This document shows positions 37,270-56,095 of a stretch of DNA of 64,000 nt, piece after piece. The translations under genes and the position numbers were made by a program. The stretch's first letter is position 1. Each line of letters begins with the position of its first letter. The notes beneath the pieces were generated by a model. The model searched no databases. It was not told where the DNA came from and was given only the letters and a program-made list of their open reading frames with translations. This DNA is from Caenimonas sedimenti (GTDB taxonomy: Bacteria > Pseudomonadota > Gammaproteobacteria > Burkholderiales > Burkholderiaceae_C), in NCBI RefSeq assembly GCF_007833165.1, contig NZ_VOBQ01000022.1, forward strand, positions 62,001 through 126,000, written 5' to 3'.

Positions 37270-38475
37270 ATGGAAATGACAGCCGCCGCCGGGCCCCTGG
37301 CGGGCCTGAAGGTGCTGGAACTCGGCCAACTGATCGCCGGGCCCTTCGCGGCCAAGACCCTGGCGGATTTCGGGGCCGACGTCGTCAAGATCGAACCGCC
37401 GCTCCAGGGCGATCCGCTGCGCAACTGGCGGCTGATGAAGGACGGTACATCGGTCTGGTGGCAGGTGCAGTCGCGCAACAAGCGCAGCGTCGCCCTCGAC
37501 CTCAAAGTCGCGGAGGCGCAGGACATCGTGCGGCGGCTGGCCGGGGAGGCCGACGTGCTGATCGAGAATTTCCGTCCTGGCGCCATGGAAGGCTGGGGCC
37601 TGGGCCCCGACACCCTGCTGGCCCGGAACCCGCGCCTGATCATGCTGCGCGTGAGCGGCTATGGGCAGACCGGTCCTTACCGCGACCGCGCCGGCTTCGG
37701 CGTGGTGGGCGAGGCGATGGGCGGGCTGCGCCACCTCACGGCGGAGCCGGGGCGCGTGCCTGTGCGCGTGGGCGTGAGCATCGGCGACACGCTCGCTTCG
37801 CTGCACGGCGTCATCGGCATCCTGCTGGCGCTGCAGCACCGGCATTCGTCCGGCGTAGGCCAGGTGGTGGACGTGGCCCTCTACGAAGCGGTGTTCAACT
37901 GCATGGAAAGCCTCCTGCCCGAATACAGCGCCTTCGGCGCCGTGCGCGGCCCCGGGGGCAGCGCGCTGCCGGGCATCGCGCCCAGCAACGCCTACCTGTG
38001 CCGCGAAGGCGCGTACGCGCTCGTCGCGGGCAACGGCGACAGCATCTTCAAGCGCCTGATGGGCGTCATCGGCCGCCCCGACCTGGCGGCGGACCCCGCC
38101 CTCGCCGACAACGCGGGCCGCGTGAAGCGGGTCGGGGAGATCGACGCAGCCATCGGCGCGTGGACCAGCTCGCGCAGCGTGGACGACGTGCTGGCGGCGC
38201 TCGACGCGGCGGGCGTGCCGGCGGGCCGCATCTATACGGTGGCCGACATCGCCGCCGACCCGCACTACCAGGCACGGGGCATGCTGCAGCAGGTGCGCAT
38301 GAGCGATGGCAGCACGCTCACCGTTCCAGGCATCGTGCCCAAACTGTCGCTCACGCCGGGAGGCCAGCACCGGAACGCTCCCGAGCTCGGGCAGGACACC
38401 GACGCGGTGTTGCGCGAGATCGGCCTGGACGAGGAGCAGGTCGCCGCCTTGCGGGCGCGTGGCATCGTCAGATGA
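37270..38475 (+). CDS. Class III CoA-transferase (CaiB/BaiF family)
   Basis: This 401-aa family III CoA-transferase moves CoA between carboxylic acids through an Asp-anhydride/thioester intermediate. The catalytic Asp is likely in V-S-I-G-D-T-L-A. The N-terminal G-P-L-A-G-L-K-V-L-E-L-G, F-G-A-D-V-V-K-I-E-P and R-N-K-R-S-V-A-L-D motifs are typical. The substrate is unknown. Its stop overlaps the ACP start by 4 bases, so it is probably the first gene of the acyl-activation cassette that runs to the LuxC-like gene. Confidence 0.9.
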   Translation: MEMTAAAGPLAGLKVLELGQLIAGPFAAKTLADFGADVVKIEPPLQGDPLRNWRLMKDGTSVWWQVQSRNKRSVALDLKVAEAQDIVRRLAGEADVLIENFRPGAMEGWGLGPDTLLARNPRLIMLRVSGYGQTGPYRDRAGFGVVGEAMGGLRHLTAEPGRVPVRVGVSIGDTLASLHGVIGILLALQHRHSSGVGQVVDVALYEAVFNCMESLLPEYSAFGAVRGPGGSALPGIAPSNAYLCREGAYALVAGNGDSIFKRLMGVIGRPDLAADPALADNAGRVKRVGEIDAAIGAWTSSRSVDDVLAALDAAGVPAGRIYTVADIAADPHYQARGMLQQVRMSDGSTLTVPGIVPKLSLTPGGQHRNAPELGQDTDAVLREIGLDEEQVAALRARGIVR

Positions 38476-38720
38476 GCCCCACCTATACTTTGCCGATGAA
38501 TGAGAAGTTGCGGCAAGTCTTCGCCACCGCGCTCGCGCTGGAGCCCGCGCAGGTCGGCGATTCGCTGAAGTACGCCGAGTCGCCCGCCTGGGACTCGGTG
38601 GCCCACATGGCGTTGGTGGCGGCGATCGAGGAAGCGTTCGGCATCATGATCGACGCCGAGGACGTGATCGACATGAGCAGCTTCGCCGAAGCGAAGCGGA
38701 TCGTCGCGAAGTACCTCTGA
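38472..38720 (+). CDS. Acyl carrier protein
   Basis: This small acidic four-helix protein is of the ACP/PCP type. The phosphopantetheine serine is in A-W-D-S-V-A-H-M, residue 42 from the ATG at 38472 (or 34 from the ATG at 38496). The upstream ATG overlaps the CoA-transferase stop (ATGA) and is taken here. It is distinct from the housekeeping AcpP (no D-S-L-D-T-V) and is probably dedicated to this cassette. Its partners are likely the adjacent AMP-ligase, reductase and LuxE/LuxC-like proteins. Confidence 0.88.
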   Translation: MSPTYTLPMNEKLRQVFATALALEPAQVGDSLKYAESPAWDSVAHMALVAAIEEAFGIMIDAEDVIDMSSFAEAKRIVAKYL

Positions 38721-38726
38721 GCATCG

Positions 38727-39464
38727 ATGGCCGCGCGCGTCGTCTTCGTCACCGGCGCCTCGCGCGGCATCGGCCGGGCCTGCGCGCTGGCATTCGCCGG
38801 CGCCGGCGAGCAACTGGTGCTGCATGCGCGCAGCGACGCGAACCTCCAGCCCGTGCTGGATGAACTGCAAACGCTGGGCGCCCCTACGCCGCTACTTTGC
38901 GCCTACCCGCTGGAGCAACCGGAGCCGGCTCGCGAGGCCTTCCAGCGCATCTTCAAGCAGTTCGGGCGGCTCGATGTCCTGGTGAACAACGCCGGCGTCA
39001 TGGAGGCGGCTGCCCTCGGGACGCTGACGCATGCGGCGCTCACGCGAACACTGGAGATCAACCTGACCGCGGCCGTGCTGCACCTGCAGGCCGCCGGGCG
39101 GCTGATGGCGCGCAACGGGAGCGGCGCCATCGTGAACATCAGTTCCATCGTCGGCCGCTACGGCTTCGAAGGGCAGGTCGCCTATGCCTCGGCGAAGGCC
39201 GGGTTGATCGGGGCGACGCTGGCGGCGGCGAAGGAGCTGGCGAAGTCCCAGGTCCGCGTGAACGCCGTGGCGCCGGGCTACATCGAATCCGACCTGCATG
39301 CCGGCGAGAGCGAGTCGACGCGCTTGGACGCGCTGGGCCGCATCCGCATGGGCCGGCCGGGGCGGCCCGAGGAGGTGGCGGCACTGGTGCAGTTCCTCGC
39401 GAGCGATGCCGCGGCCTATGTGACCGGGCAGGTGGTCGGGATCGACGGAGGCATGAGCTTGTGA
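38727..39464 (+). CDS. SDR family oxidoreductase, FabG-like
   Basis: This 245-aa short-chain dehydrogenase/reductase has V-T-G-A-S-R-G-I-G-R-A at the cofactor site, N-N-A-G-V, the catalytic S and Y-x-x-x-K (A-Y-A-S-A-K) and a G-Q-V-V-G-I-D-G-G-M C-terminus as in 3-oxoacyl-ACP reductases. It follows the ACP gene by 6 bases and overlaps the AMP-ligase start (GTGA). The likely reaction is reduction of a 3-oxoacyl-ACP. The exact substrate is inference. Confidence 0.9.
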   Translation: MAARVVFVTGASRGIGRACALAFAGAGEQLVLHARSDANLQPVLDELQTLGAPTPLLCAYPLEQPEPAREAFQRIFKQFGRLDVLVNNAGVMEAAALGTLTHAALTRTLEINLTAAVLHLQAAGRLMARNGSGAIVNISSIVGRYGFEGQVAYASAKAGLIGATLAAAKELAKSQVRVNAVAPGYIESDLHAGESESTRLDALGRIRMGRPGRPEEVAALVQFLASDAAAYVTGQVVGIDGGMSL

Positions 39465-40795
39465 GCTTCTGGCAGCTCGCGCATGACGCCCGCACGGTGG
39501 CGGCCATCGACGAGCGCGGAACGGCGGTCAGCTACGGCGAACTGGCGCAACGCGCCGGCGACGTCGCGACGGCGTTGCGGCCGGCCGGCGGGCGGCGGCT
39601 GGGCTTCATCGCGATGCGCAACACGCTGCCGGCGCTTGCCCACTACCTGGGTTGCCTGCGCGCGGGACACGTGCCGCTGCTGCTGGCGCCAGAGCTCCCC
39701 GCGCCGCTGTTGCAGGCGCTGGTCGAACGTTACGACCCCGCGTGGATCTTCGATGCGTCCGGTGGCCTGCGGTGGCGTGACACGGACGGGCCGCCGCTGC
39801 ATGCCGATCTGGCGTTGCTGCTCACGACGTCGGGCACCACCGGCAGCCCGCGCCTCGTGCGGCTCTCGCACAGCGCCCTGCACGCCAACGCGGAATCGAT
39901 CGCGCGTTTCCTGGGGATCGGCGCTGGGGAGCGCGCGGTCACGACACTGCCGCTGCACTACTCCTACGGCCTGTCGGTGCTGCACAGCCACCTGCACGCG
40001 GGCGCGTCCGTGGTGCTCACGGACGCGAGCATCATCCAACGCCCGTTCTGGGAGACGGTGGACGCGCACGGCGTCACGTCCTTGTCGGGCGTGCCCTACC
40101 TCTACCAGTTGCTGCAGCGCACCGGCTTCGAGCAGCGGGCCTTGCCATCGCTGAGGACGCTCACGCAGGCCGGCGGGCCGCTGGGCGAATCGCTGACTCG
40201 CCATTTCCAGTCCTTGGCCGCGGCGCGGAGCTGGCGCTTCTTCGTCATGTATGGCCAGACGGAAGCCACGGCGCGCATCAGCTACGTTCCGCCTGAGCAC
40301 CTGGCGCGCAAGGTGGGCGCCATCGGCATCCCCGTCCCCGGTGGTGCTCTGGCGCTCGACGGGGGTGAGTTGGTCTATCGGGGCCCGAACGTGATGATGG
40401 GCTACGCCGAAACCGCCGCCGACCTGGCCATGGGGGATGTGCTGCGTGGTGTCCTGCGCACCGGCGACCGCGGCCGGATGGATGAAGACGGGTTCTTCTA
40501 CGTCACGGGGCGCTTGGGCCGCTTCGTGAAGCTGGCTGGGCACCGCGTCGGGCTGGACGAGGTCGAAGCCATCCTGGCGCGAGCGCTGGGGGTGGCGGTG
40601 GCGGTGACCGGGCGCGACGACCGGTTGCTGGCCGCGATCGAAGCACCGGACGCCTCCGCCGCGAAGGACGTGCTGGTGCAGCAGCTGCGCCTGCATCCCT
40701 CGATGTTCCAGGTGACCGCGCTGCAGGCCCTGCCGCGCCTGCCCAATGGCAAGCCCGACTACGCGGCGCTGCAGCAGCAAGCGGGGGCCGCATGA
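39461..40795 (+). CDS. AMP-dependent acyl ligase (ANL superfamily)
   Basis: This 444-aa acyl-adenylate-forming enzyme has the P-loop-like L-T-T-S-G-T-T-G-S-P-R motif, the Y-G-Q-T-E-A aromatic/acid motif, R-T-G-D-R-G and a conserved late lysine in L-P-N-G-K. It is shorter than typical acyl-CoA synthetases (500-560 aa). It probably activates a fatty or hydroxy acid and loads it on the neighbouring ACP. The GTG start overlaps the SDR stop, and its stop overlaps the LuxE-like ATG. Confidence 0.9.
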   Translation: MSFWQLAHDARTVAAIDERGTAVSYGELAQRAGDVATALRPAGGRRLGFIAMRNTLPALAHYLGCLRAGHVPLLLAPELPAPLLQALVERYDPAWIFDASGGLRWRDTDGPPLHADLALLLTTSGTTGSPRLVRLSHSALHANAESIARFLGIGAGERAVTTLPLHYSYGLSVLHSHLHAGASVVLTDASIIQRPFWETVDAHGVTSLSGVPYLYQLLQRTGFEQRALPSLRTLTQAGGPLGESLTRHFQSLAAARSWRFFVMYGQTEATARISYVPPEHLARKVGAIGIPVPGGALALDGGELVYRGPNVMMGYAETAADLAMGDVLRGVLRTGDRGRMDEDGFFYVTGRLGRFVKLAGHRVGLDEVEAILARALGVAVAVTGRDDRLLAAIEAPDASAAKDVLVQQLRLHPSMFQVTALQALPRLPNGKPDYAALQQQAGAA

Positions 40796-41871
40796 GTGTG
40801 CCCCTGCCATTCGACCTGGCGCGCATGTACGACGTGCCCGCGGCGGTCAAGCGCGCCGGGATGCTCGCCACGCTGAACGCGCTGGGTGACTGGCATGCGC
40901 AACGCTGCGCGCCTTACCGTGCCGCGCGCGAGACGTTGTTCCCGGCAGGGCCGGCCGGCACGATCGAGGCGTTGCCGTACCTGCCGGTGCGGCTGTTCAA
41001 GTCGCTCGACCTCCTCAGCGTGCCGCGCGAAGCCATCGTCAAGACGCTGGTGTCGAGCGGCACGACCGGTCACACGCCTTCGCGCATCCACCTGGACCGC
41101 GAAACGTCGGTGCGGCAAGGCCGGGTGCTGACGGCCATCATGACCGCGTTCCTCGGGCGCCAGCGCCTGCCGATGGTGGTGGCCGACAGCGCCGCGCTGC
41201 TGCGGGACCGCACCCGCTTCAATGCGCGAGCCGCGGCGCTCCTCGGCTTTTCGGTGCTGGGCCGCGACCACTTCCATGCGCTCGACGAGCTGCTGCTGCT
41301 GGACACCGAGGGCCTGGATGCCTGGCTCGCCGCCCATGCGGACCAGCCCGTGCTGCTCTTCGGCTTCACGGCGCTGGTGTGGCAGCACCTCGTGCAGGCA
41401 TTGCGCCGGCAGGGCCGTGCGTTGCGTTTCCCTGAGGGCAGCTGGCTGCTGCATGGCGGCGGCTGGAAACGCCTGGCCGACCAGCAGGTCAGCCATCAGG
41501 AATTCAAGGCCGCGGTGCGCGAGACGCTGGGCATCACGCGCGTCGCCAACTACTACGGCATGGTCGAACAGACCGGCACCATCTTCATGGAATGCGAGCA
41601 GGGCCACCTGCACAGCCCCGTGTTCGCGGATGTCGTGGTGCGCGATGCCCGCACTTTGCAGCCGCTCGGGGCCGGGCAACCCGGCGTGCTGCAGGTGCTC
41701 AGTGCCCTCCCTCTCAGTTACCCGGGCCATTCGCTGCTGACGGAAGACCTGGGCGTGCTGCACGGCGAGGACGATTGCGCCTGCGGCCGCCTGGGCCGCT
41801 ACTTCTCGGTGCTGGGCCGGATGCCGGAAGCGGAATTGCGCGGCTGCAGCGACACGCGGGTGCTGCCGTGA
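40792..41871 (+). CDS. LuxE-like acyl-protein synthetase
   Basis: This 359-aa LuxE/PaaK-type ANL relative, in luminous bacteria, activates a fatty acid as acyl-AMP and passes it to LuxC. The motifs L-P-V-R-L-F-K near the N-terminus, S-S-G-T-T-G-H-T-P (adenylate loop), and Y-Y-G-M-V-E-Q-T-G are characteristic. Cysteines at 329, 331 and 354 are candidates for acyl transfer, in the same C-terminal zone as the LuxE acyl-cysteine. It overlaps both neighbours by 4 bases. No luxA, luxB or luxD is present. Confidence 0.88.
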   Translation: MSVPLPFDLARMYDVPAAVKRAGMLATLNALGDWHAQRCAPYRAARETLFPAGPAGTIEALPYLPVRLFKSLDLLSVPREAIVKTLVSSGTTGHTPSRIHLDRETSVRQGRVLTAIMTAFLGRQRLPMVVADSAALLRDRTRFNARAAALLGFSVLGRDHFHALDELLLLDTEGLDAWLAAHADQPVLLFGFTALVWQHLVQALRRQGRALRFPEGSWLLHGGGWKRLADQQVSHQEFKAAVRETLGITRVANYYGMVEQTGTIFMECEQGHLHSPVFADVVVRDARTLQPLGAGQPGVLQVLSALPLSYPGHSLLTEDLGVLHGEDDCACGRLGRYFSVLGRMPEAELRGCSDTRVLP

Positions 41872-43115
41872 CCGCGCAGGCCACGCTGCTGCTGGGCGCG
41901 TTGCCAGGCGAGACGCTGGACGCGGCCGTCGGCCGGATGGCGGCGCTGCCGGCCTGGCGGCCCTTCGACGATCGGGCCATGTGCTTCGTCGCTGCGTTTT
42001 CGCGGCGCCTCGCAATGGACACGGCCGCCCGCCCCTACCCCGAATTGCTGGCGCTGGCCCATTGGTTCCGTGGCGCCCGGTTGCGCGAGCTCGCGGCGCG
42101 CCAGCAGGCCGGTGACGCTGCCAGTTTCGCCGTGGGACGCGGCCTGGCGTTCCATCTCGCGCCGGCGAACGTCGACTCGATCTTCATGTACTCCTGGCTG
42201 CTCTCGGCGCTGGCCGGCAACGCCAACATCGTGCGGGTCTCGCAGAAGCCGAGTCCGCAGGTCGACCGGTTCGTCGCCGCGCTGCACGCCACGCTCGCGG
42301 ACCCGGCTGTGGGCCATGCGATGACCGGGCGCCTCCTCCTGCTGACGTATCCCCATGAGGCGGAGGTCACCCGGGCGATCTCGCAGGCCGCGCAGTTGCG
42401 CGTGGTCTGGGGCGGCGATGCCACGGTGGCCGCCATCCGCGCGATCCCCTTGCGTCCCACGGCGGCAGAGCTGGTGTTCCCGGATCGTTTTTCCGCGGCG
42501 GCCTTCGACGCGGCTGCGGTGCTGGCAGCGGACGATGCGGGCCTGGTGAAGCTGGCCGGCGCCTTCTACAACGATGCCTTCTGGTTCGCCCAGCAGGCGT
42601 GCTCGTCGCCGCGCGTGCTGCACTGGGTCGGCAGCGCGGCGGACATCGACGCCGCCAAAGCGCGCTTCTGGTCCGCGCTCGGCGCCGAGCTGACGCGCCG
42701 CGCACCCGACAACACCGCTGCGATGACCATGGCGCGCGTGGTCGCGGCTTTCGACTATGCGGCCCGCGGCGCTGTCACGGTGAATGAGGCCCCCACGGGC
42801 TTTCCGCTGCGGCTGCACTTGCAGCGGCCGCCGGACCGGGAACTGCGGGACCTGCACTGCGGCAACGGGTTGTTCCTGGAGCAATCGCTCGCCTCATTGG
42901 CCACGCTGGCGCCGCAACTGGACGACCGCGACCAGACTCTGGCGGTGTTCGGGTTCGGTCCGGCGGAACTGCAGGCATTCGCCGCGGCGTTGCCGCCGCG
43001 CGCGCTGGACCGCATCGTGCCGGTGGGAAAGGCGCTGGAATTCGACGCCGTGTGGGACGGCGTCGACCTGCTGGCGGCTTTCAGCCGCCGCGTGCGAATC
43101 AGCTCAGCGACTTGA
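41868..43115 (+). CDS. LuxC-like acyl-CoA / acyl-ACP reductase
   Basis: This 415-aa LuxC-family aldehyde-forming reductase belongs to the aldehyde dehydrogenase superfamily. The nucleophilic cysteine is C245 in F-A-Q-Q-A-C-S-S-P-R. Upstream, the A-P-A-N-V-D-S-I-F-M-Y-S-W segment and G-G-D-A-T match LuxC. It is expected to reduce a fatty acyl group handed over by the LuxE-like protein to a fatty aldehyde with NADPH. The GTG start overlaps the LuxE-like stop. The 3' end overlaps the convergent ACBP gene by 17 bases. Confidence 0.88.
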   Translation: MTAQATLLLGALPGETLDAAVGRMAALPAWRPFDDRAMCFVAAFSRRLAMDTAARPYPELLALAHWFRGARLRELAARQQAGDAASFAVGRGLAFHLAPANVDSIFMYSWLLSALAGNANIVRVSQKPSPQVDRFVAALHATLADPAVGHAMTGRLLLLTYPHEAEVTRAISQAAQLRVVWGGDATVAAIRAIPLRPTAAELVFPDRFSAAAFDAAAVLAADDAGLVKLAGAFYNDAFWFAQQACSSPRVLHWVGSAADIDAAKARFWSALGAELTRRAPDNTAAMTMARVVAAFDYAARGAVTVNEAPTGFPLRLHLQRPPDRELRDLHCGNGLFLEQSLASLATLAPQLDDRDQTLAVFGFGPAELQAFAAALPPRALDRIVPVGKALEFDAVWDGVDLLAAFSRRVRISSAT

Positions 43116-43353
43116 TCAGGTCGACGTACTGCTGCATGGCGTCGTTGTTCGACGTCCCCTTCATGCCGTTCCAGGCGTCCCACTTGGCGCGGCCGACCAT
43201 GTCGCCGAAGCCCGGCTTCTTCTCGGTGTTGTCACCCGCGGTGGCCTGCTTGTACAGCGCGTAGATCTTCAGCAGCGTGGCGTTGTCCGGGCGCTCGGTG
43301 AGGCTCTTGGAGCCGGCGACGGCGGCTTCGAATTCGGCTTTGAGGTCGGCCAT
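43099..43353 (-). CDS. Acyl-CoA-binding protein
   Basis: This 84-aa four-helix ACBP binds medium- and long-chain acyl-CoA. The family motif Y-A-L-Y-K-Q-A-T-x-G-D and the K-W-D-A-W signature are both present, along with K-P-G-F. ACBP is sporadic in bacteria, found mainly in some Proteobacteria. Placed between an acyl-CoA reductase and a wax ester synthase, it probably buffers acyl-CoA for them. The gene is convergent with the luxC-like gene, whose stop it overlaps, and divergent from the wax ester synthase. Confidence 0.93.
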   Translation of the reverse strand: MADLKAEFEAAVAGSKSLTERPDNATLLKIYALYKQATAGDNTEKKPGFGDMVGRAKWDAWNGMKGTSNNDAMQQYVDLIKSLS

Positions 43354-43507
43354 GGGAAGGAGGTCTCCTGCGGTTCGTTGGGATGGAACTCTACCCGGCC
43401 AGCTCGACTGCGGGTAACTTCGCGCTATCTTAAGGTCCGGCGCCCCACCAGAATAGGGGCCACCTCCCAAACCCACCAAATCAGACAACACAACGGATGG
43501 AGCAAGC

Positions 43508-45034
43508 ATGGTGACCCGCATCGTCGCGCAGGAAGTGGCCAGCCAGGCCACGCAATCGGCCCGCCGGGCGGCCAAGGCGGTGCGCAAGAACGCCAGCCGC
43601 GCCGCCAGCGGCATGCTGGGGCTCACCGGCGAGCGCATGACCAAGGTGGACACCGCCTGGCTGCGCATGGATTCGCCCAGCAACCTGATGATGATCGTCG
43701 GCGTGTGGACGCTCACGCCGGGCATCAAGTACGCCGACCTGTGCCAGCGGGTCGAGGACCGCCTGCTGAAGTACGGCCGCTTCCGCCAGCGGGTGGTGGA
43801 AGACGCGGCCGGGGCCACCTGGGTCGAGCACAAGGTGAACGTCGCGGAACACATCATCCGCGAGAAGCTGCCGAAGACGAAACCGGGCATGGCGCAGGCG
43901 GCGCTGCAGAAGCGCGTGGGCGAACTCGCCATGGAGCCGCTCGACCACAAGCGCCCCCTGTGGCAGTTTCACCTGGTCGAGGACTACGAAGGCGGCAGCG
44001 CGCTCCTCGTGCGCATCCACCACTGCATCGCCGACGGCATCGCGCTCATCTCCGTCACCATGTCGCTGGTCGATGGCGGCCTGCCGCCGCCGGAGCGCAA
44101 GCGCAAGCAGGCGCCGGCCGGCGCCGAGGATTGGATCGCCGACACGCTGATCAAGCCGCTCACCGATCTCACCGTGCGCGCGCTGGGCGCGGCGGGCGAC
44201 GGCGCCGTCAAGGGGCTGGGCATGCTGCGCGACCCACAGAAAGGCATGTCCGGCTCGCTGGACATGGCACGGCTGGCCTACCAGGTGGTGAGCGACGCGG
44301 CGGCACTGGCGCTGATGCCGGACGACTCCAAGACCAGGCTGAAGGGCAAGCCGGGCGCCGCCAAGCGCGTCGCGTGGTGCGAGCCGCTGCCGCTCGATGA
44401 AGTGAAGGCGGTGGGCAAGGCGCTCAACTGCTCCGTGAACGACGTCCTGCTGTCCTGCGTGGCGGGTGCCATCGGTGAGTACCTGAAGAACAAGGGCGAC
44501 GACGTCGAGGGCCAGGAGATCCGCGCGATGATCCCGGTGAACCTGCGTCCGCTGGACCAGGCCTACAAGCTGGGCAACCGTTTCGGCCTGGTGCCGCTGG
44601 TGCTGCCGATCGGCATGGCGAACCCGATCGAGCGGGTCTACGAAGTGCGGCGGCGCATGAACGCGCTGAAGGGCAGCACGCAGCCGTTGCTGGCCTTCGG
44701 GCTGCTGGCGGTGGCCGGCTTGTTGATCAAGCCCGCGCAGGACGCCATGCTGAACCTGTTCGGCCGCAAGACCACGGCGGTGATGACCAACGTGCCGGGC
44801 CCGCGCGAGAAGCTCAAGCTGCTGGGCTCCACGCTGCAGCAAAGCATGTTTTGGGTCCCACAGTCGGGCGACATCGGCCTGGGCGTGTCGATCCTCAGCT
44901 ACGGGGGCGGCGTGCAGTTCGGCGTGATCACCGACACGCTGCTGTGCCCCGAGCCGCAGGAGATCATCGACGAGTTCGAGCCTGAGTTCGCGAAGCTCTC
45001 GCTCGTCACGCTGATGCTCCCCTGGGGGGAGTAG
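43508..45034 (+). CDS. Wax ester synthase / diacylglycerol acyltransferase (WS/DGAT)
   Basis: This 508-aa bifunctional acyltransferase esterifies fatty alcohols or diacylglycerol with acyl-CoA at the membrane or lipid-body surface. The active-site H-H-x-x-x-D-G is H171-H172-C-I-A-D176-G177. The N-terminal M-T-K-V-D-T-A-W-L motif and the late N-V-P-G-P motif are also typical of the family. A basic N-terminal extension of about 40 residues precedes the domain. It is divergent from ACBP by 154 bases. It forms a pathway with the FAR at 49.2 kb. Confidence 0.95.
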   Translation: MVTRIVAQEVASQATQSARRAAKAVRKNASRAASGMLGLTGERMTKVDTAWLRMDSPSNLMMIVGVWTLTPGIKYADLCQRVEDRLLKYGRFRQRVVEDAAGATWVEHKVNVAEHIIREKLPKTKPGMAQAALQKRVGELAMEPLDHKRPLWQFHLVEDYEGGSALLVRIHHCIADGIALISVTMSLVDGGLPPPERKRKQAPAGAEDWIADTLIKPLTDLTVRALGAAGDGAVKGLGMLRDPQKGMSGSLDMARLAYQVVSDAAALALMPDDSKTRLKGKPGAAKRVAWCEPLPLDEVKAVGKALNCSVNDVLLSCVAGAIGEYLKNKGDDVEGQEIRAMIPVNLRPLDQAYKLGNRFGLVPLVLPIGMANPIERVYEVRRRMNALKGSTQPLLAFGLLAVAGLLIKPAQDAMLNLFGRKTTAVMTNVPGPREKLKLLGSTLQQSMFWVPQSGDIGLGVSILSYGGGVQFGVITDTLLCPEPQEIIDEFEPEFAKLSLVTLMLPWGE

Positions 45035-45113
45035 GCTGGGGTGAGCGGCGCAGCCCGAACCCCAGCGCTCGCGCCTGAATCGCTGGGGTTCGCTTCGCTC
45101 ACCGTCAGCCTAC
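45031..45113. repeat. Nested inverted repeat between convergent genes
   Basis: Three nested pairings are readable: GTAGGCTG (45031-45038) with CAGCCTAC (45106-45113), GTGAGCG (45041-45047) with CGCTCAC (45096-45102), and GAACCCCAGCG (45057-45067) with CGCTGGGGTTC (45081-45091). It begins at the wax ester synthase stop and ends 18 bases before the convergent hemerythrin stop. There is no T-run, so it may be a bidirectional Rho-type or mRNA 3'-end structure rather than a classic intrinsic terminator. Confidence 0.75.
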
Positions 45114-45131
45114 GCTTGGGGAAATAGCGCC

Positions 45132-45599
45132 TCAGGACTCCGCGGAACTCACCGGCGTCTTCAGCAGCCGGAACTTCGCGTATTCCTCTTCGTAGGCTTT
45201 CGCCAGCGAAATCTTCTGCGCCTCGTTCAGCACCTTGCCGGCCAGCTGGAAGATCGCGCTTTCCTCGTCGTCGAGGTGGTGGAACACCTTGTGGTGCAGT
45301 TTCTTGAAATGCGCCAGCCAGCCGGACGAGGCGAAGTCCATCTTGTTCAACTCGTCGACGAGTTCGTCCATCTCATGGTGTTCGGCCATGCCGTGGCGCG
45401 ACTGGCCCATGCTGGAGTCGTGCTCGATCAGGGGCAGGTAGAAGCAGCGCTCCTCCGCCGCGGCATGCGCGGCAAGTTCGTGCTTCAGCTCGGTGTAGAG
45501 GTGATTGCGTTCGGGGCTGTCGCCCTGGGTCTCCAGGATCTGGGCCGCGAGGGCGCGCTGGATTTCGTGGCTGAGGCGCAGGGCTTCGAAGATGTTCAT
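45132..45599 (-). CDS. Hemerythrin-domain protein
   Basis: This 155-aa helical protein of the HHE/hemerythrin-like type binds a non-heme di-iron centre, or is a diverged member. Likely ligands are H11 (S-H-E), H39/H44 region (L-K-H-E-L-A-A-H-A-A-A-E-E-R), H73-E-x-D and the late H-H-K-V-F-H-H-L-D-D-E-E. No signal peptide is seen. It is the last gene of the minus-strand group patatin-TetR-TPR-hemerythrin. An oxygen, NO or iron-sensing role is a family-based guess. Confidence 0.85.
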   Translation of the reverse strand: MNIFEALRLSHEIQRALAAQILETQGDSPERNHLYTELKHELAAHAAAEERCFYLPLIEHDSSMGQSRHGMAEHHEMDELVDELNKMDFASSGWLAHFKKLHHKVFHHLDDEESAIFQLAGKVLNEAQKISLAKAYEEEYAKFRLLKTPVSSAES

Positions 45600-45669
45600 G
45601 GAGCGCGATTCTGGGCGCCGCGCCGCCGGCGGGCTGTAGGCCCCCGGCTCATCCGTGCGTAGTGCCCGG

Positions 45670-46443
45670 TCAGTCCTGCAACTCGACCTTGGCGAGCTCG
45701 ACGTCGAGGCGTTCCATGGCATCGAAGGGCTTGGTGGCGGCGGCCTGCTCGTAAAGCTTCGTCGCCTCCTTCATGCGCTTGTCACCTTCGAGCATCACCA
45801 GGCCGTTGGCGTATTCGATCATGGCGATCGCCGAGCCCGGATGGATCTTGATCGCCTCCTGGAACAGCTTCAGCCCGGTGTCTTTCTTCGCGCCATAGGT
45901 CATGCCCCCGATCAGCGAGCCGACCTTGTCGATGACCTCGGCATGGAAGGCGCCCAGCGCGATGTGGGCGTCGGCATGCCGCGGCTCCAGCTTGATGGCC
46001 TTTTCAAGTGCATCCTTCACCTTGCTGCCCAGCCCCTGCGCCAGCGCCTTGGCGACGCTGATGCCCTGGCTGTAGCGGCCCAGCGCATAGGCCTGCCAGT
46101 ACCAGGCGGAGGCGTTCTTCGGGTCGGCGGCGGCAGCGGCCTCGGCGCGCTGGGCCGCTTCCATGAAGAGGTCGAGCTTGGTCTTCTCTTTTTTCTCGAG
46201 ATAGTTGGCGTAGATGCAGGTGGCCTTGTTGGCCACGGACAAGCCGGCACCGCCCGCCTTCAGGCCGGCTTCGGCCGCCTTCTGGAATTCGCCGTTGTGG
46301 AACAGGGCCCAGGCCTCCAGCACCGCCGTGTCGGCGGGCAGGGGTTCGGCATCGCCGGTGTGCAGGCGGGCCCAGTGCTTCTTCACGCTCTTCGCGTCGA
46401 AGGTGTACTCACCCAGGTGCGGGAAGGCAGTCCACTTGGCCAT
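45670..46443 (-). CDS. Tetratricopeptide-repeat-like protein
   Basis: This 257-aa helical-repeat protein has several TPR-like segments, for example A-L-E-K-A-I-K-L-E-P-R-H-A-D-A-H and A-I-K-I-H-P-G-S-A. No signal peptide or membrane segment is present, so it is probably a cytoplasmic scaffold. It lies 40 bases after the TetR gene and 70 bases before the hemerythrin gene on the same strand. Partners are unknown; the operon context suggests a link to lipid turnover or stress. The repeat fold is clear, but the function is not. Confidence 0.75.
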   Translation of the reverse strand: MAKWTAFPHLGEYTFDAKSVKKHWARLHTGDAEPLPADTAVLEAWALFHNGEFQKAAEAGLKAGGAGLSVANKATCIYANYLEKKEKTKLDLFMEAAQRAEAAAAADPKNASAWYWQAYALGRYSQGISVAKALAQGLGSKVKDALEKAIKLEPRHADAHIALGAFHAEVIDKVGSLIGGMTYGAKKDTGLKLFQEAIKIHPGSAIAMIEYANGLVMLEGDKRMKEATKLYEQAAATKPFDAMERLDVELAKVELQD

Positions 46444-46483
46444 CGGTTTGTCTCCTACCTGTTTCTCGCGCGGTCTTCAGCCG

Positions 46484-47155
46484 CTATTCACCGGGATTGC
46501 CGTGGCCTCCATAGGCCCCCGCCAGCTGCAGCAGGTGCATGCGCTGGCCGGTTTCCAGATAGGGTACCAGCAGATTGAGCACGTGGTGGGCGCCGCGCAG
46601 CAAGGCGAACTGCGCACTCTCGGGTTCCAGGGCCCGGCGCGGGTCCCGCACGTATTCGTAGCTCAACCAGTAAGTCAGCACCACGACCATGCTGGTGGCC
46701 GTGGCTTCGACCTCGCGCGAATCGATGCGGACGGCGCCGGCGCGGCTCATGCCGTCCAGCAGCGCCTTGATCGAGCGCGTCTTGTTCTTCAGCACCCACT
46801 GGAAGTGCGTCTCCAGCCGGCGGTTCTTCGACAGCAGGTCGTTCAGGTCGCGGTACAGGAAGCGGTATTGCCAGATCAGCTCGAACAGCGTGTGCATGAA
46901 GAACCAGGCGTCCTCGACGTCGCGCACACCGTCGCTGGCATTCAGCAGTTCGGACAGCGCACGTTCATAGCGGTCGAACAGCGAGTTGATCAGCTCGTCC
47001 TTGGCCGGGTAGTGGTAATACAGGTTGCCCGGGCTGATGCCCAGCTCGGCCGAGATCAGCGTCGTGGAGACGTTGGGCTCACCGAAGCGGTTGAACAGGT
47101 CCAGCGTCACCTCCAGGATGCGTTCTGCGGTCCGGCGGGGCGCTTTCTTGGCCAT
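46484..47155 (-). CDS. TetR/AcrR family transcriptional regulator
   Basis: This 223-aa TetR-type repressor has an N-terminal helix-turn-helix (about residues 10-55) with the F-N-R-F-G-E, I-S-A-E-L-G-I-S-P-G-N-L-Y-Y-H-Y-P-A-K-D-E-L pattern, and a variable ligand-binding domain. The ATG at 47155 lies 5 bases after the patatin stop, so both are in one operon. It may control the patatin operon and perhaps the divergent phasin/FAR spacer. Acyl-CoA as ligand is a guess from neighbours. No clear operator was picked out by eye. Confidence 0.92.
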   Translation of the reverse strand: MAKKAPRRTAERILEVTLDLFNRFGEPNVSTTLISAELGISPGNLYYHYPAKDELINSLFDRYERALSELLNASDGVRDVEDAWFFMHTLFELIWQYRFLYRDLNDLLSKNRRLETHFQWVLKNKTRSIKALLDGMSRAGAVRIDSREVEATATSMVVVLTYWLSYEYVRDPRRALEPESAQFALLRGAHHVLNLLVPYLETGQRMHLLQLAGAYGGHGNPGE

Positions 47156-47160
47156 CGGGC

Positions 47161-48396
47161 TCAGGCCGCCTCGCGAGTGGTGTGCAGCGCGTGGCCGAGG
47201 TCGTCCACGACTTCCTGCAGCGTGGCCACTGCCTGCCCGATGCGGGTGCGTGGCAACGGCGGCGCGACCAGGTGGCGCCGCGGGTCGTCCAGCACCGCGC
47301 CGTCGAGGACGATGCCGTGCCGGGCCAGCTTGGGCGCGAGTGTCGTCCGGCGCGAACGCAGCATGCTGCGCGTCTGCTGGTAGGCGTGCTCGGCCAGCTG
47401 GCGCCGCTGGCCATAGCTGAAGGTGTTGGCCAGGTACAGCTCGGGGTCGCGCTGGTCGGGCTCGATCAGCACGATGTCGGTGTCGGGGTAGGCGCGCTCG
47501 TACTGCTTCATGCCGAGTTCCATGCGCGAATGGATCATCGAGCGGAAGGTCTGGCTCAGCACCGCAGGCAGGCCGCCGTCGACGATACGCGGGATGCGGC
47601 GCTTCTCGGCCGGCAGGTTGCGCTGCATCACGGCGTCGCGCGGCTCGACCGAATTGAATGGCACCAGCGGGTTGAGGCACAGCATCAGGTCGATGCCGTC
47701 TTCCAGCGCCACCGAAGCATGCATTGTCTTTTTCAGCGCGCCGTCCACGAAGTAGTGCGCGTCGATCTCCACCGGCGGGAACAGCCCGGGCAGTGCCGAA
47801 CTCGCCTGGACAGCCTTGGAGATGGGCACGTGGTCCCAGCCAGGGCGGCCGAAGGGCGCGGCGTCGCCGCTGTCGAGATTGGTCGCCACCAGGGTGAGGC
47901 GGCTGCGCAGTTCGCGGAAGTCGTTGGTGCGGCCGTCGCGCGTGAACAGACTGGCCAGGCGCGTGTGCACCTCCTCGTTGGAGAAGATGCCGGTCGGCAG
48001 GGCGGGGCCCAGACGTTCCAGGGCGTGCGTCACGGACTTGCGGCCCCAGGTGGCACGCCAGAGGGCGGAGGCGAGCAGGCCCGGGAACATGATCCCGCGC
48101 CGGGCGAATTCGCCGTAGGCGGGCACCATCAGCCAGGCCGGATCAAACACCTCGGAGGCCCCATCGTTGTCGATGAACGACGCGCAGAGTTCGCGCGGCG
48201 CCATGCCGTTCGCGAGGCCCGCGGCGATGAAGCCGCCGGCGGAGACCCCCACATAGTGGTCCAGTTTCGTGAAATCCAGTCCCTGCAGCGCTTCGTCGAG
48301 CGCGCAGAGCGCCCCGATCTCGTAGATGGCGCCCAGCGGGCCTCCACCGGCGAGGGCCAGCGCGATGCGCGGCGGCTTTCCATTTCTGCTTTTCAT
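47161..48396 (-). CDS. Patatin-like phospholipase
   Basis: This 411-aa patatin-domain acyl hydrolase has the oxyanion loop G-G-G-P-L-G (about residues 17-22), nucleophile S52 in G-V-S-A-G, and D218 in F-V-D-G-A as the second dyad residue. It could release fatty acids from phospholipids or stored lipids. The ATG at 48396 begins M-K-S-R-N-G-K; an upstream frame extends through GC-rich sequence without family similarity. It heads the patatin-TetR-TPR-hemerythrin group on the minus strand. Confidence 0.92.
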   Translation of the reverse strand: MKSRNGKPPRIALALAGGGPLGAIYEIGALCALDEALQGLDFTKLDHYVGVSAGGFIAAGLANGMAPRELCASFIDNDGASEVFDPAWLMVPAYGEFARRGIMFPGLLASALWRATWGRKSVTHALERLGPALPTGIFSNEEVHTRLASLFTRDGRTNDFRELRSRLTLVATNLDSGDAAPFGRPGWDHVPISKAVQASSALPGLFPPVEIDAHYFVDGALKKTMHASVALEDGIDLMLCLNPLVPFNSVEPRDAVMQRNLPAEKRRIPRIVDGGLPAVLSQTFRSMIHSRMELGMKQYERAYPDTDIVLIEPDQRDPELYLANTFSYGQRRQLAEHAYQQTRSMLRSRRTTLAPKLARHGIVLDGAVLDDPRRHLVAPPLPRTRIGQAVATLQEVVDDLGHALHTTREAA

Positions 48397-48455
48397 GAAG
48401 GGGCAGTGTAGGTGGACGGTTGCGCACGGCTTGCTGCGTTGCAGCATCGCGCCAC

Positions 48456-48482
48456 GAAAAAGGGGCGCCGCGGCGCCCCTTG
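48456..48482 (-). terminator. Rho-independent terminator for the phasin gene
   Basis: On the minus strand, GGGGCGCC-GC-GGCGCCCC (the palindrome at 48462-48479) is followed by TTTTT (48461-48457). It lies 20 bases after the phasin stop and upstream of the patatin start. The stem is perfect and GC-rich with a T-run on the minus strand, so it is a good intrinsic terminator for phasin. Confidence 0.85.
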
Positions 48483-48499
48483 TTTCCGCGACCCGAAGG

Positions 48500-49012
48500 T
48501 CACTCGGCGGCCTTGCGCGCGCTGGTGCGCTTGCGGGCCGGCTTGGCGGCGCTGCTCCCCGCGGCGCTCTTGCCGCTGGTGGCGGAGCCACCGCCCTTGG
48601 CGCTCAGCTTCGCCACGTTGCGATTCAGTTCGTCGATGCGCGCGATCAGCACATCGATGTCCTTGGCCGACGGCACGCCCAGCTTGTTGAGGGCGCGCGA
48701 GACACGCTCCTCGAAGATGCCTTCGAGCTTGTCCCACTGGCCGGAGGCCTTGGACGAGATGTCGGTCGCCATCGACGCCATGCGGCTCGTGGCTTCGGAG
48801 ATCTTCTCTTCGGCCGCGGCCTGCGTCTTGCGCTGGATCGACATGCCTTCCTTCACCAGCGCTTCGAAGACCTTGCCGCCTTCTTCCTGCGCCTTGGAGA
48901 AGGCACCCAGGCCCGCCAGCCAGATCTGCTGCGCCGAATCCTTGACGGTGCCGGACAGGGGGGCGCCGGACTTCGCCGCGTCATCGCTCGTTTTCTGCAA
49001 TTTCTTGACCAT
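48500..49012 (-). CDS. Phasin (PhaF/PhaI-type granule-associated protein)
   Basis: This 170-aa poly(hydroxyalkanoate) granule-associated protein is of the PhaF/PhaI family. The N-terminal amphipathic half has I-W-L-A-G-L-G-A-F-S-K-A-Q-E-E-G-G-K-V-F and V-K-E-G. A middle coiled coil and a lysine/alanine/arginine-rich tail (K-P-A-R-K-R-T-S-A-R-K) resemble histone H1. It may coat PHA or neutral lipid granules and tether them to DNA. It is divergent from the FAR gene across a 218-base spacer and has its own terminator. Confidence 0.9.
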   Translation of the reverse strand: MVKKLQKTSDDAAKSGAPLSGTVKDSAQQIWLAGLGAFSKAQEEGGKVFEALVKEGMSIQRKTQAAAEEKISEATSRMASMATDISSKASGQWDKLEGIFEERVSRALNKLGVPSAKDIDVLIARIDELNRNVAKLSAKGGGSATSGKSAAGSSAAKPARKRTSARKAAE

Positions 49013-49230
49013 GGCTTCTCGCTCCTTCAGTGGGGTCGCACCGCAGCTCCCAAATGCGCGGTGCCTGCAACCGACTCTAAGCGCACAACGGTGGCTCCGT
49101 TTAGGTGCGCGTTCCTAATTGCCTAGGCGGTGAACCCTATGTGCGCGCGGGTTTGTGCTGAATGATCGCCTCCGCGCTTTGGGCAAGAATGCCCGCAAGC
49201 CAAATACCAATAACCCCCGGAGGCTCCCCC
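49013..49230. other. Divergent spacer between phasin and fatty acyl-CoA reductase genes
   Basis: This 218-base non-coding spacer probably holds promoters for both genes. It contains a 7-bp inverted repeat, GCACCGC (49038-49044) with GCGGTGC (49058-49064), in the phasin leader, and a GCGCAC/GTGCGC pair around 49080-49110. A strong GGAGG ribosome site precedes the FAR ATG. No confident -10/-35 pair or TetR operator was identified. Confidence 0.4.
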
Positions 49231-51252: not shown

Positions 51253-52164
51253 ATGAAGATCCTCTTGTTCGGCAGGAACGGCCAGGTGGGCTGGGAGCTG
51301 CAGCGCAGCCTGGCGCCGCTGGGCGAACTGGTGGCCGTGGACCGGCGTTCCGAGCTCTGCGGCGAGCTGGAGCAGCTCGATGGGATCGCCGCCACCGTAC
51401 GCGCCGTGCGGCCGGACGTCGTCGTCAATGCGGCGGCCTACACGGCCGTCGACAAGGCGGAATCCGATCGCGATGCCGCCCATCGCATCAATGCCGAGGC
51501 ACCGGGCGTGCTGGCCGCCGAGGCGCAGAAGCTCGGCGCCTGGTTCGTCCACTACTCGACCGACTATGTTTTCGACGGCGAAGGAACGGCGCCCTGGCGC
51601 GAAGACGCCGCCATCGCACCGGCCAGCGTGTATGGCGCGACCAAGGCGGAAGGCGAGCAGCTGGTCGCCCAGTCGGGCGCGCGCCACCTGATCTTCCGCA
51701 CCAGCTGGGTTTACGCCGCCCGCGGCGGCAACTTCCTGCACACGATGCTGCGCCTCGCGCAGGAGCGCGAAAAACTCGCTGTGGTCGATGACCAGTTCGG
51801 GGCGCCCACCGGCGCGGAGCTGATCGCCGACGTGACGTCCCACGCGCTGCGCCAGGCCGTGGCGGGGTCTGCGGACGGCGGCACCTATCACCTGGCCGCC
51901 GCCGGCGTGACGAACTGGCACGGGTATGCCAGCCATGTGATCGAGGCGGCACGCCGGTCCGTCCAGGGCGAAAAGATCCGCGCGGGCACCATCGACGCGG
52001 TCCCGTCCAGCGTTTACAAGACCGCCGCACGCCGCCCGCATAATTCCAGGCTGGACCTTCGGAAACTGCAACGCACCTTCGGCCTGACGCTGCCGCCCTG
52101 GCAACATGGCGTCGACCGTGTCCTCAACGAGATCGGCTGGGCCCCCGCGGCCAACACCCCATGA
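51253..52164 (+). CDS. rfbD: dTDP-4-dehydrorhamnose reductase
   Basis: RmlD reduces dTDP-4-keto-L-rhamnose to dTDP-L-rhamnose. The product is a 303-aa SDR-extended enzyme with [11 protein letters not shown] at the cofactor site, [12 protein letters not shown], the S-T-D-Y-V-F-D motif and Y-G-A-T-K (catalytic Y and K). An upstream in-frame ATG at 51235 is not preferred. It lies at the head of the sugar cluster, where rmlB would normally be found first. The stop overlaps rmlA (ATGA). Confidence 0.95.
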
Positions 52165-53033
52165 CAAACCGCAAGGGCATCGTCCTCGCCGGCGGCTCCG
52201 GCACCCGCCTGCACCCGGCCACCCTGGCCATCAGCAAGCAACTGCTGCCGGTGTACGACAAGCCGATGATCTATTACCCGCTCAGCACGCTGATGCTGGC
52301 CGGCATCCGCGACGTGCTGGTCATCAGCACGCCGCAGGACACGCCGCGGTTCACGCAACTGCTGGGTGACGGCGCGCAGTGGGGCATGAACATCCAGTAC
52401 GCCGTGCAGCCCAGCCCCGATGGCCTGGCGCAGGCGTTCATCATCGGCGCGGACTTCGTGGGCACCTCGCCCAGCGCCCTGGTGCTGGGTGACAACATCT
52501 ACTACGGGCATGACTTCTTCCATCTGCTTGAAGGCGCGGACCGCCAGGACGACGGTGCGACCGTCTTCGCCTACCACGTGGCGGACCCGGAGCGTTACGG
52601 CGTGGTGGAGTTCGATGCGCGCGGCAAGGCGGTGAGCATCGAGGAAAAGCCGAAGGCACCGCGCAGCAACTTCGCCGTCACCGGCCTCTACTTCTACGAC
52701 CGGCAAGTGGTCGACATCGCGCGCGCCGTGAAGCCGAGCGCCCGTGGCGAACTCGAGATCACTTCGGTCAACCAGGCGTATCTGGAGCAAGGCAAGCTGT
52801 CGGTGCAGATCATGCAACGTGGCTACGCCTGGCTCGACACCGGCACGCACGAGAGCCTGCTCGAGGCCAGCCAGTTCATCGCCACGCTGGAGCACCGCCA
52901 GGGCCTGAAGATCGGCTGCCCCGAAGAGATCGCCTGGCGCGCCGGCTTCATCGACTCGGAGCAGTTGCAGAAGCTGGCGCAGCCCATGGCCAAGACCGGC
53001 TACGGGCAATACCTGCTGCGGCTGTTGAAGTAA
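52161..53033 (+). CDS. rfbA: Glucose-1-phosphate thymidylyltransferase
   Basis: RmlA makes dTDP-glucose from glucose-1-phosphate and dTTP, the entry step for dTDP-rhamnose and dTDP-amino sugars. The product is 290 aa, the short RmlA form. The nucleotide loop L-A-G-G-S-G-T-R-L, the [10 protein letters not shown] motif and the L-G-D-N-I-Y-Y-G metal region are intact. The start overlaps rmlD and rmlC follows after 8 bases. Confidence 0.97.
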
Positions 53034-53041
53034 GGTTCGCG

Positions 53042-56091: not shown

Positions 56092-56095
56092 GCCC

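Follow-up and report, generated by a model that had tools for sequence, protein, structure and literature searches.

A LuxE-LuxC gene block of Caenimonas sedimenti as a candidate short-hydroxyacyl module for amino-sugar N-acylation

Introduction

In Vibrio cholerae O1, the genes VC0248-VC0252 have been assigned to tetronate, and loss of the ligase abolishes the O1 antigen (PMC3441752; here and below, citations refer to the relevant passages of the articles). RfbL (VC0249) activates 2,4-dihydroxybutanoate for CoA or for the carrier RfbK (PMC12208996), and VC0250, VC0251 and VC0252 are annotated as an iron-containing alcohol dehydrogenase, an acyl-protein synthase/acyl-CoA reductase (RfbN) and an acetyltransferase, respectively (PMC9201469). 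Here we describe a block of five genes encoding a dedicated acyl carrier protein (ACP), a FabG-like short-chain dehydrogenase/reductase (SDR), a short AMP-forming ligase, a LuxE-like acyl-protein synthetase and a LuxC-like acyl-thioester reductase. The block lies in a stretch of 64,000 nucleotides of Caenimonas sedimenti (assembly GCF_007833165.1, contig NZ_VOBQ01000022.1, positions 62,001 to 126,000 of the forward strand), hereafter the window, whose first letter is position 1. Its closest functional relative would be, by analogy, the V. cholerae O1 tetronate set, the maker of a 2,4-dihydroxybutyryl amide and, to our knowledge, the only known sugar-acyl pathway built on two activations and a reduction. 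RfbK corresponds to VC0248, and RfbM and RfbO are further names used for members of this set.

The five families also occur together in flagellar glycosylation islands (FGIs). Specifically, they have been reported as orf1-orf2-orf3-luxE-luxC in the Group II polar flagella glycosylation islands of Aeromonas, in a study of 98 strains (PMC7874193), as an Acp/FabG/CaiC/LuxE/LuxC set in enterobacterial FGIs (PMC4875605) and as the same families in Dickeya (PMC7575072). The authors of the Aeromonas and Enterobacteriaceae studies suggest that these may be 'liposugar' genes (PMC7874193, PMC4875605). These accounts put the block itself in print but leave its chemistry undefined; the view expressed in the initial annotation of the window, that no characterised pathway has exactly this set, is not supported in the sense of an unrecorded gene set. 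In the open-access literature searched, no short-chain reading of the block had been suggested. We propose, with a probability of about 0.6, that this patchily distributed module serves to build a short omega-hydroxyacyl group, carried by its private ACP, for the N-acylation of an amino-deoxy sugar.

Results

The unit consists of five genes

The initial annotation had grouped six genes, from a CaiB/BaiF type III CoA-transferase (CaiB) to the LuxC-like protein, into one cassette. The six plus-strand open reading frames and their families were all confirmed by Pfam matches above cut-off (Table 1). The unit is nevertheless made of five genes (38496-43115), not six, CaiB being a resident gene of the genus that does not belong to the set, as documented below. 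Most junctions had been described as overlaps of 1 to 4 bases: three of the five (SDR-ligase, ligase-LuxE and LuxE-LuxC) are indeed 4-base overlaps, whereas ACP and SDR are separated by 6 bases and CaiB and ACP by 20. The GC content at third codon positions (GC3) of the six genes is 0.88-0.92, versus 0.88-0.95 in the other window genes measured, and neither GC nor GC3 gives a foreign signature for the block.

In agreement with the earlier remark that luxAB and luxD are absent, no luciferase (luxA/luxB) or LuxD family was found among the 25 window proteins, a subset of the window genes, that were scanned with Pfam; the same scan found no ketosynthase in the block. The best NCBIfam models for the SDR are 3-oxoacyl-ACP reductases, all below cut-off. 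The NCBIfam matches listed for the ligase are all below cut-off as well; the top one is TIGR03098, and the best named ACP ligase among them is AmcH (NF058661), to which our ligase does not belong (it scores 111.9 bits, and the cut-off is 370).

Key residues are conserved in the block proteins

The cysteines of LuxE and LuxC were located by alignment to the LuxE and LuxC chains of PDB entry 7xc6; C352 of LuxE and C245 of LuxC are presumably the nucleophiles. C352 is kept in 56/56 aligned rows and C245 in 55/55 covering rows, after exclusion of a truncated one. Serine S34 of the ACP is retained in 52/52 aligned rows, and K431, which we take to be the catalytic lysine of the ligase, is invariant in 11/11. 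Loss of the LuxC cysteine or of the ACP serine, named in the initial annotation as evidence that would count against its claim, was thus seen in no covering row.

The LuxE protein matches the LuxE of 7xc6 with an E-value of 1.7e-12. The LuxC model (predicted local distance difference test, pLDDT, 90.4) has as its top structure match the LuxC chain 7xc6_A (Z 28.7, root-mean-square deviation 3.7, 387 residues aligned), followed by a match at Z 25.9; aldehyde dehydrogenases rank behind LuxC, about 3 to 4 Z units lower. These matches speak for the fold only and give no indication of the substrate. In the LuxE model, residues 348-359 have a pLDDT below 50 and form a flexible C-terminal tail containing C352.

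The block recurs beside amino-sugar and N-acyltransferase genes

Loci carrying the block (numbered L, in genomes numbered G) were picked by their LuxE, so that LuxE counts are given by construction. A LuxE scan of species genomes led to 11 loci. A plasmid search returned 46 records, seven of which were opened: the block was present in four of them (Ponticoccus, Deinococcus, Rhizobium and Nonomuraea), and three with other LuxE settings were excluded (Streptomyces L027, Priestia L026 and Pantoea L028). A class-level search found LuxE in 4/369 genomes, our own included. In the order of G545, LuxE was found in 45/345 genomes, with 36 strong matches (E < 1e-80, including the fused form of G687) and 9 weak ones; among seven of the latter that were inspected, three have luxAB-like neighbours (by eye) and four belong to other settings. 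The final set numbers 55 loci including the window, 54 of them distinct (L010 and L029 are apparently one contig), and excludes L033 (on one contig with L009), L006/L034 (G196; weak, other setting), L002 (an aldehyde dehydrogenase) and the variant L190 of G931. L007, L008, L012-L014 and L016 come from metagenome-assembled genomes, which makes the host names, including Lachnospiraceae and Coriobacteriales, less sure.

LuxC is present in all 55 loci, the ligase in 53, the ACP in 52, the SDR in 47 and all five families in 45; same-strand adjacency holds for LuxE-LuxC in 54 loci and for ligase-LuxE in 47. The search for the same gene order that the initial annotation had called for recovered the five families, and CaiB was found in none of the 54 other loci. 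The usual order elsewhere is ACP-SDR-ligase-LuxE-LuxC, frequently straight after a GNAT acyltransferase of the PseH type, which stands within 300 bases of the ACP or the SDR in 32/55 loci. At least one of DegT, PseH, PseI and RmlA occurs in 49/55 loci, compared to 0/20 control stretches (about 20 kb each, from twenty genomes of the order of G545), although this enrichment comes from an uneven sample, the marker profiles having been seeded from the same loci and the controls drawn from that order only. FliD-, FliS- or flagellin-like proteins were found in 13/54 loci, so that the acceptor is probably a flagellin glycan in some cases and a different surface glycan in others.

The constancy of the individual genes bears on a rival explanation, in which a 3-oxo acid such as acetoacetate is loaded on the ACP by the ligase and reduced by the SDR to (R)-3-hydroxybutyryl-ACP for N-acylation, LuxE and LuxC merely serving recycling or salvage of the acyl group. 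Such a route would agree with the top SDR models, which, albeit below cut-off, are 3-oxoacyl-ACP reductases, and there are bacterial amino sugars that bear 3-hydroxybutyryl amides, e.g. the viosamine of P. syringae flagellin (PMC3958885). However, it would make accessories of LuxE and LuxC, the most constant pair of the whole set, and centre on the SDR, which is the gene most often missing (8/55) or swapped for an iron-containing alcohol dehydrogenase (Fe-ADH), an enzyme that would suit the reduction of an aldehyde better than that of a 3-oxoacyl-ACP. We therefore consider this explanation unlikely.

Transketolase-type genes were observed in eight of the loci (L012, L014, L024, L031, L064, L065, L066 and L083), seven of which have them as a split pair; some of these loci add a GMC oxidoreductase, a FabZ-like, a KAS III-like or a thiamine pyrophosphate enzyme. 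These loci possibly represent a chain-lengthening version of the pathway.

The sugar cluster of the window

A sugar cluster (51253-58874) lies 8 kb from the block and encodes enzymes for dTDP-sugar supply, an FdtA-type ketoisomerase, which is the sole FdtA match in the genome, a DegT aminotransferase and a GNAT N-acyltransferase (Table 1). Its RmlD is similar to proteins of L010/L011, and a strict RmlB is found above cut-off on another contig (G000:C24:558886). The GtrB/ArnC-like glycosyltransferase, GtrA and a 610-aa protein, whose role would be that of a partner of these two, may form a periplasmic sugar-transfer set.

In the Rubrivivax locus L008, homologues of the window FdtA (57%), GNAT (48%) and DegT (46%) stand straight before ACP-SDR-ligase-LuxE, with the DegT gene directly before the ACP gene and the GNAT gene two genes before it; LuxC is also present. 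In L084 the FdtA, GNAT and DegT families are found inside the locus of the block, the FdtA being 45% identical to that of the window. Because these two loci carry the same three families at the block, the sugar cluster of the window appears, by analogy, to be tied to the block despite the 8 kb between them.

Loci with layouts related to the tetronate set

Two loci show arrangements related to those of V. cholerae O1. In G687 (L098), which served as a stand-in for the tetronate set in the comparisons and in the tree in place of the V. cholerae proteins themselves, an ACP of 77 aa is followed by a ligase, an Fe-ADH and a LuxE-LuxC fusion of 825 aa. In G931 (L190), a member of the genus of the window, the order is ligase-ACP-FeADH-LuxE-LuxC-GNAT-DegT, with an Fe-ADH match barely above cut-off (32.8 versus 31.3 bits). 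Since an Fe-ADH takes the place of the SDR in both layouts, the two enzymes look like interchangeable carbonyl reductases, and L190 is a possible bridge between the RfbKLMN and the SDR layouts. In a tree of 35 LuxE proteins (23 from block loci, L098, L190, three of lux operons recognised by eye and seven others), the block proteins together with L098 and L190 are split from the rest with a support of 0.984. The linkage to a known product, another observation that the initial annotation had said would change its claim, is found by analogy only, with the tetronate of V. cholerae O1. The sfmABCDE genes of Shewanella oneidensis (PMC3765264), also considered for comparison, were dropped as a different set (NeuB-like protein, thiamine pyrophosphate enzyme, SDR, methyltransferase and ATP-grasp protein).

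Published glycan masses and the length of the acyl chain

Aeromonas piscicola AH-3, a Group II strain, carries a 376.14-Da derivative of pseudaminic acid (Pse) and a terminal 102-Da unit of unassigned composition, which its authors regarded as an unknown carbohydrate while suggesting a liposugar (PMC7874193). The 376-Da unit is retained in a mutant lacking fgi-1 only, in which the block is intact (PMC7874193), and A. caviae Sch3N carries plain Pse5Ac7Ac (PMC3958885). We calculated masses of 274.116 for mono-acetyl Pse and 102.032 for C4H6O3, which add up to 376.148. Dihydroxybutyryl (C4H6O3), an assignment of our own, fits both the 102- and the 376-Da units, although 376.148 equally corresponds to Pse with two C3H4O2 (hydroxypropionyl) groups, or with propionyl plus glyceryl, and 102 at low resolution could be C5H10O2.

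These masses are relevant to the published liposugar suggestion, i.e. that a medium- or long-chain fatty acyl or aldehyde is placed on a surface or flagellar sugar. The LuxC and LuxE enzymes of luminous bacteria use long-chain acids, and a FabG-like SDR and a dedicated ACP are present in the block; in addition, FabZ-like genes occur in L014 and L024 (annotated as FabZ in L024) and a ketosynthase-like gene in L066 (by eye). Nevertheless, no elongation genes are found in the block of the window, and the 102- and 376-Da units of AH-3 leave no space for a long acyl chain on Pse (PMC7874193). With a model built from the block, true lux LuxE proteins score 89-109 bits, compared to 585 for the window protein; the chain length of the lux system cannot simply be transferred to the block. 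All together, these data make a liposugar improbable as the product.

The block is an insertion beside a resident CaiB

The genes on both sides of the block were compared with those of related genomes. A CaiB match (E <= 1e-100) was found in 36/36 other genomes of the genus (61 examined) and a WS/DGAT match in 23/36. Ten relatives were picked because CaiB and WS/DGAT lie within about 3.2 kb on one contig, hence their ten out of ten is not a genus rate; elsewhere in the genus the two genes stand further apart or on separate contigs. The ten share the order aminopeptidase-family, PHA_gran_rgn, CaiB, acyl-CoA-binding protein (ACBP), WS/DGAT, hemerythrin, TPR, TetR, patatin, phasin and 661-aa reductase-like protein, except that no patatin is called in L125 and that L132 has two additional genes after WS/DGAT. 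An ACBP homologue of 84 aa (83 in L127) occupies the same place in all ten (matched by eye).

The interval between CaiB and ACBP measures -4 to 126 bases, with nothing between, in six of the ten, and is filled in the other four by lyase-like, Bug-receptor-like, VOC- or hydrolase-like genes (named by eye). In L129-L132 a LysR-like gene precedes CaiB and two to four other genes follow it; as these loci hold different cargo at the same spot, the interval between PHA_gran_rgn and ACBP may be a minor hot spot at which genes are gained. Block-type LuxE was found in none of the ten chosen relatives, G916 having one weak match elsewhere, and in 1/60 genomes of the genus, namely that of the window; a diverged variant is present in G931 (2.4e-76), and 18 further weak matches in the genus (8e-11 to 1.5e-17) were left out of the counts. 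At the family level, LuxC (E <= 1e-10) occurs in 4/200 genomes: our own, two strong and one weak. The 54 other block loci yielded no match to CaiB or WS/DGAT.

In conclusion, since relatives keep CaiB without the block, and neither CaiB nor WS/DGAT was detected at the other block loci, the five genes represent an accessory insertion, whereas CaiB is resident. The empty sites of the relatives and the genus-wide occurrence of CaiB rule out the six-gene unit, and membership of the CoA-transferase, as initially annotated, is not supported.

The ACBP and WS/DGAT genes directly downstream, which the initial annotation had overlooked, raise the question of a fatty alcohol or wax ester, one of the uses it had considered. 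In this explanation the block would supply the WS/DGAT that starts 392 bases downstream of LuxC; the protein passes model TIGR02946 and is surrounded by ACBP, phasin, patatin and a 661-aa PF07993 reductase-like protein. However, the WS/DGAT, ACBP and 661-aa genes stand in the same order, beside CaiB, in the ten chosen relatives without block-type LuxE, no WS/DGAT occurs in the 54 other loci, and the locus carries its own PF07993-type reductase candidate. On the evidence of the blockless relatives and of the WS/DGAT-free loci, we rejected the wax-ester link, to which we give hardly any probability.

The stretch 43099-51216 (ACBP, WS/DGAT, TetR, patatin, phasin and the 661-aa protein) is a lipid-storage block common to the ten chosen relatives. 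The N-terminal half of the 661-aa protein matches PF07993 (acyl-reductase-like) and its C-terminal half is an SDR. This stretch looks like a wax-ester/polyhydroxyalkanoate (PHA) locus independent of LuxC. Elsewhere in the window, two small overlapping genes (2494-3179) resembling a ribbon-helix-helix/PIN toxin-antitoxin pair lie between hisD-like and hisC-like genes of a histidine operon, and an AAA-ATPase-like gene (6283-7467) lies between hisA-like (5524) and hisF-like (7490) genes (all by eye).

Table 1. Features of the window, with positions counted from its first letter
Feature	Position	Strand	Family evidence and remarks
CaiB/BaiF type III CoA-transferase	37270-38475	+	Pfam CoA_transf_3, above cut-off; resident neighbour, outside the cassette
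Dedicated ACP, 74 aa	38496-38720	+	Pfam PP-binding, above cut-off; phosphopantetheine serine S34 (WDSVAHM)
FabG-like SDR, proposed semialdehyde (carbonyl) reductase	38727-39464	+	Pfam adh_short, above cut-off
Short AMP-forming ligase, 444 aa, proposed ACP loader	39461-40795	+	Pfam AMP-binding, above cut-off
LuxE-like acyl-protein synthetase	40792-41871	+	Pfam LuxE, E 8.8e-44; proposed acyl-transfer cysteine C352
LuxC-like acyl-thioester reductase	41868-43115	+	Pfam LuxC, E 3.5e-25; proposed catalytic cysteine C245
ACBP	43099-43353	-	Pfam ACBP; right boundary; 3' end overlaps LuxC by 17 bases
WS/DGAT	43508-45034	+	passes TIGR02946
RmlD, RmlA, RmlC (dTDP-sugar supply)	51253-53590	+	RmlC TIGR01221; RmlA Pfam NTP_transferase, named by eye; RmlD by eye
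DegT sugar aminotransferase, FdtB-like by context, proposed 3-amino sugar maker	53587-54714	+	Pfam DegT
GtrB/ArnC-like glycosyltransferase	54708-55637	+	Glycos_transf_2
FdtA-type dTDP-4-oxo-6-deoxyglucose 3,4-ketoisomerase	55645-56091	+	Pfam FdtA, E 3.4e-52
GNAT N-acyltransferase, proposed ACP-to-amino-sugar acyl mover	56096-56650	+	Pfam Acetyltransf_3
GtrA	56647-57045		Pfam GtrA
610-aa protein	57042-58874		no Pfam match

Discussion

The gene content and order of the block, its key residues, its insertion as five genes beside a resident CaiB and its recurrent linkage to amino-sugar and N-acyltransferase genes depict an acyl line with a private ACP and an acyl reductase, and without luciferase. 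This much had been anticipated by the initial annotation, as had the acyl decoration of a surface sugar among its possible uses, and both receive support here. Two enzymes of the block activate acids (ligase and LuxE), LuxC is its thioester reductase, the SDR its carbonyl reductase and the ACP its single carrier. The conversion of a dicarboxylate into an omega-hydroxyacyl carrier thioester calls for such a set, as it involves activating an acid twice and reducing one end to the alcohol.

In the mechanism that we propose, LuxE would adenylate one carboxyl of a C4 dicarboxylic acid, most likely malate or succinate, and pass the acyl group on to the LuxC cysteine in thioester linkage, a hand-over known from the enzymes of luminous bacteria. 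LuxC would then use NAD(P)H to reduce the acyl group to the semialdehyde, and the SDR would convert the latter into the omega-alcohol, i.e. 2,4- or 3,4-dihydroxybutyrate or 4-hydroxybutyrate, whose remaining carboxyl would be adenylated and loaded on the ACP by the ligase. From there, the GNAT of the sugar cluster may use the acyl group to N-acylate, at its 3-amino position, a dTDP-3-amino-3,6-dideoxyhexose that is itself predicted to arise from RmlA/B, FdtA and the DegT aminotransferase, and the Gtr-type genes would put the sugar onto a surface glycan. The substrate, the chain length, the order of the two activations and the choice of the window GNAT as the accepting enzyme are what we infer from this gene content.

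Besides the sampling of the marker enrichment and the alternative compositions of the Aeromonas units given above, several observations weigh against the production of a short omega-hydroxyacyl group for an amino sugar. The candidate acyltransferase of the window is 13 kb from LuxC and not adjacent to it, and its GNAT type occurs in 9/345 genomes, three of which have the block (about 0.9 expected), only one at the same locus, and six of which do not; we regard this co-occurrence as too weak to count. The 32 PseH cases are confined to L015, L030, L031 and the set from the order of G545. Six of the 55 loci (L014, L017, L023, L024, L065 and L083) lack the four sugar markers; L023 lies among clustered glycosyltransferase genes on a plasmid, its LuxC being followed by an acetyltransferase, L014 and L024 have NeuD-like acyltransferases, L083 has a WecD-like protein, and L017 represents a different setting, with LuxE-LuxC ahead of a larger ligase. 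Given these six loci and the eight with transketolase-type genes, the products probably differ between loci. No SDR lies within 4 kb on the strand of LuxE in 10/55 loci, and none was found anywhere in the locus in 8/55, so that some loci may use another reductase. Finally, the LuxC of the variant L190 is diverged, with 44 bits against the model of the block.

A wider formulation, to which we give somewhat less than an even chance, is that the block is a portable, cross-phylum module turning C4 dicarboxylates into (di)hydroxybutyryl-ACP for amino-sugar N-acylation. Many LuxC/LuxE pairs that make no light would then be short-chain enzymes, the 102- and 376-Da units of Aeromonas would be explained, the 'liposugar' suggestion would be overturned, and the split-transketolase subgroup would lengthen the LuxC aldehyde by ketol transfer. 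We know of no description of such a lengthening as a route to glycan acyl groups.

Many bacteria carry the same families in loci of the flagellin-glycan, O-antigen-like or exopolysaccharide type, and annotations there have treated them as fatty-acid genes. With a short-chain product, if true, hydroxybutyryl-type sugar amides could be recognised by a gene signature, the two unidentified Aeromonas masses would become directly testable, and Lux-type reductases would have a second, wider purpose. The CoA-transferase and wax-ester neighbours in the window are bystanders.

Compared to the luxC-luxE pair of bioluminescence (7xc6, Photobacterium phosphoreum), the block shares the sequence relation, the cysteines of both proteins and the LuxC fold, but it has its own ACP and an extra ligase, belongs to a distant clade, has a LuxC about 60 residues shorter, and no luxA, luxB or luxD was seen among the 25 scanned window proteins. 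AmcH, an adenylate-forming 2-oxoglutaryl-ACP ligase (NF058661), is similar in being a dicarboxylate ACP ligase named among the model matches of our ligase, which nonetheless fails its cut-off. With the Aeromonas Group II islands the block has in common the ACP, the SDR of 3-oxoacyl-ACP-reductase type, the AMP synthetase, luxE and luxC, in identical order, and with the enterobacterial FGI set the five families. In those islands, however, the block sits between pse and glycosyltransferase genes (in Aeromonas, fgi-1 follows luxC), whereas in the window luxC is followed by ACBP and WS/DGAT, within a lipid/PHA block; no PseI above the model cut-off was found in the genome of the window.

The tetronate set of V. 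cholerae O1 resembles the block in its dedicated carrier and AMP-ligase, in its alcohol/carbonyl reductase, in its LuxE and LuxC functions and, possibly, in having an acyltransferase near amino-sugar genes. It differs in that its iron alcohol dehydrogenase (VC0250) is replaced by an SDR in the window, and its fused LuxE/LuxC (RfbN) by two genes with a 4-base overlap. In addition, its acceptor is perosamine, whereas that of the window would be a dTDP-3-amino-3,6-dideoxyhexose, and its acyltransferase is adjacent, while the window GNAT and DegT genes lie 10-13 kb from the block, to which they are adjacent in L008. By this analogy, the short-hydroxyacyl module would belong with the tetronate set as a variant of it and would not form a kind of its own.

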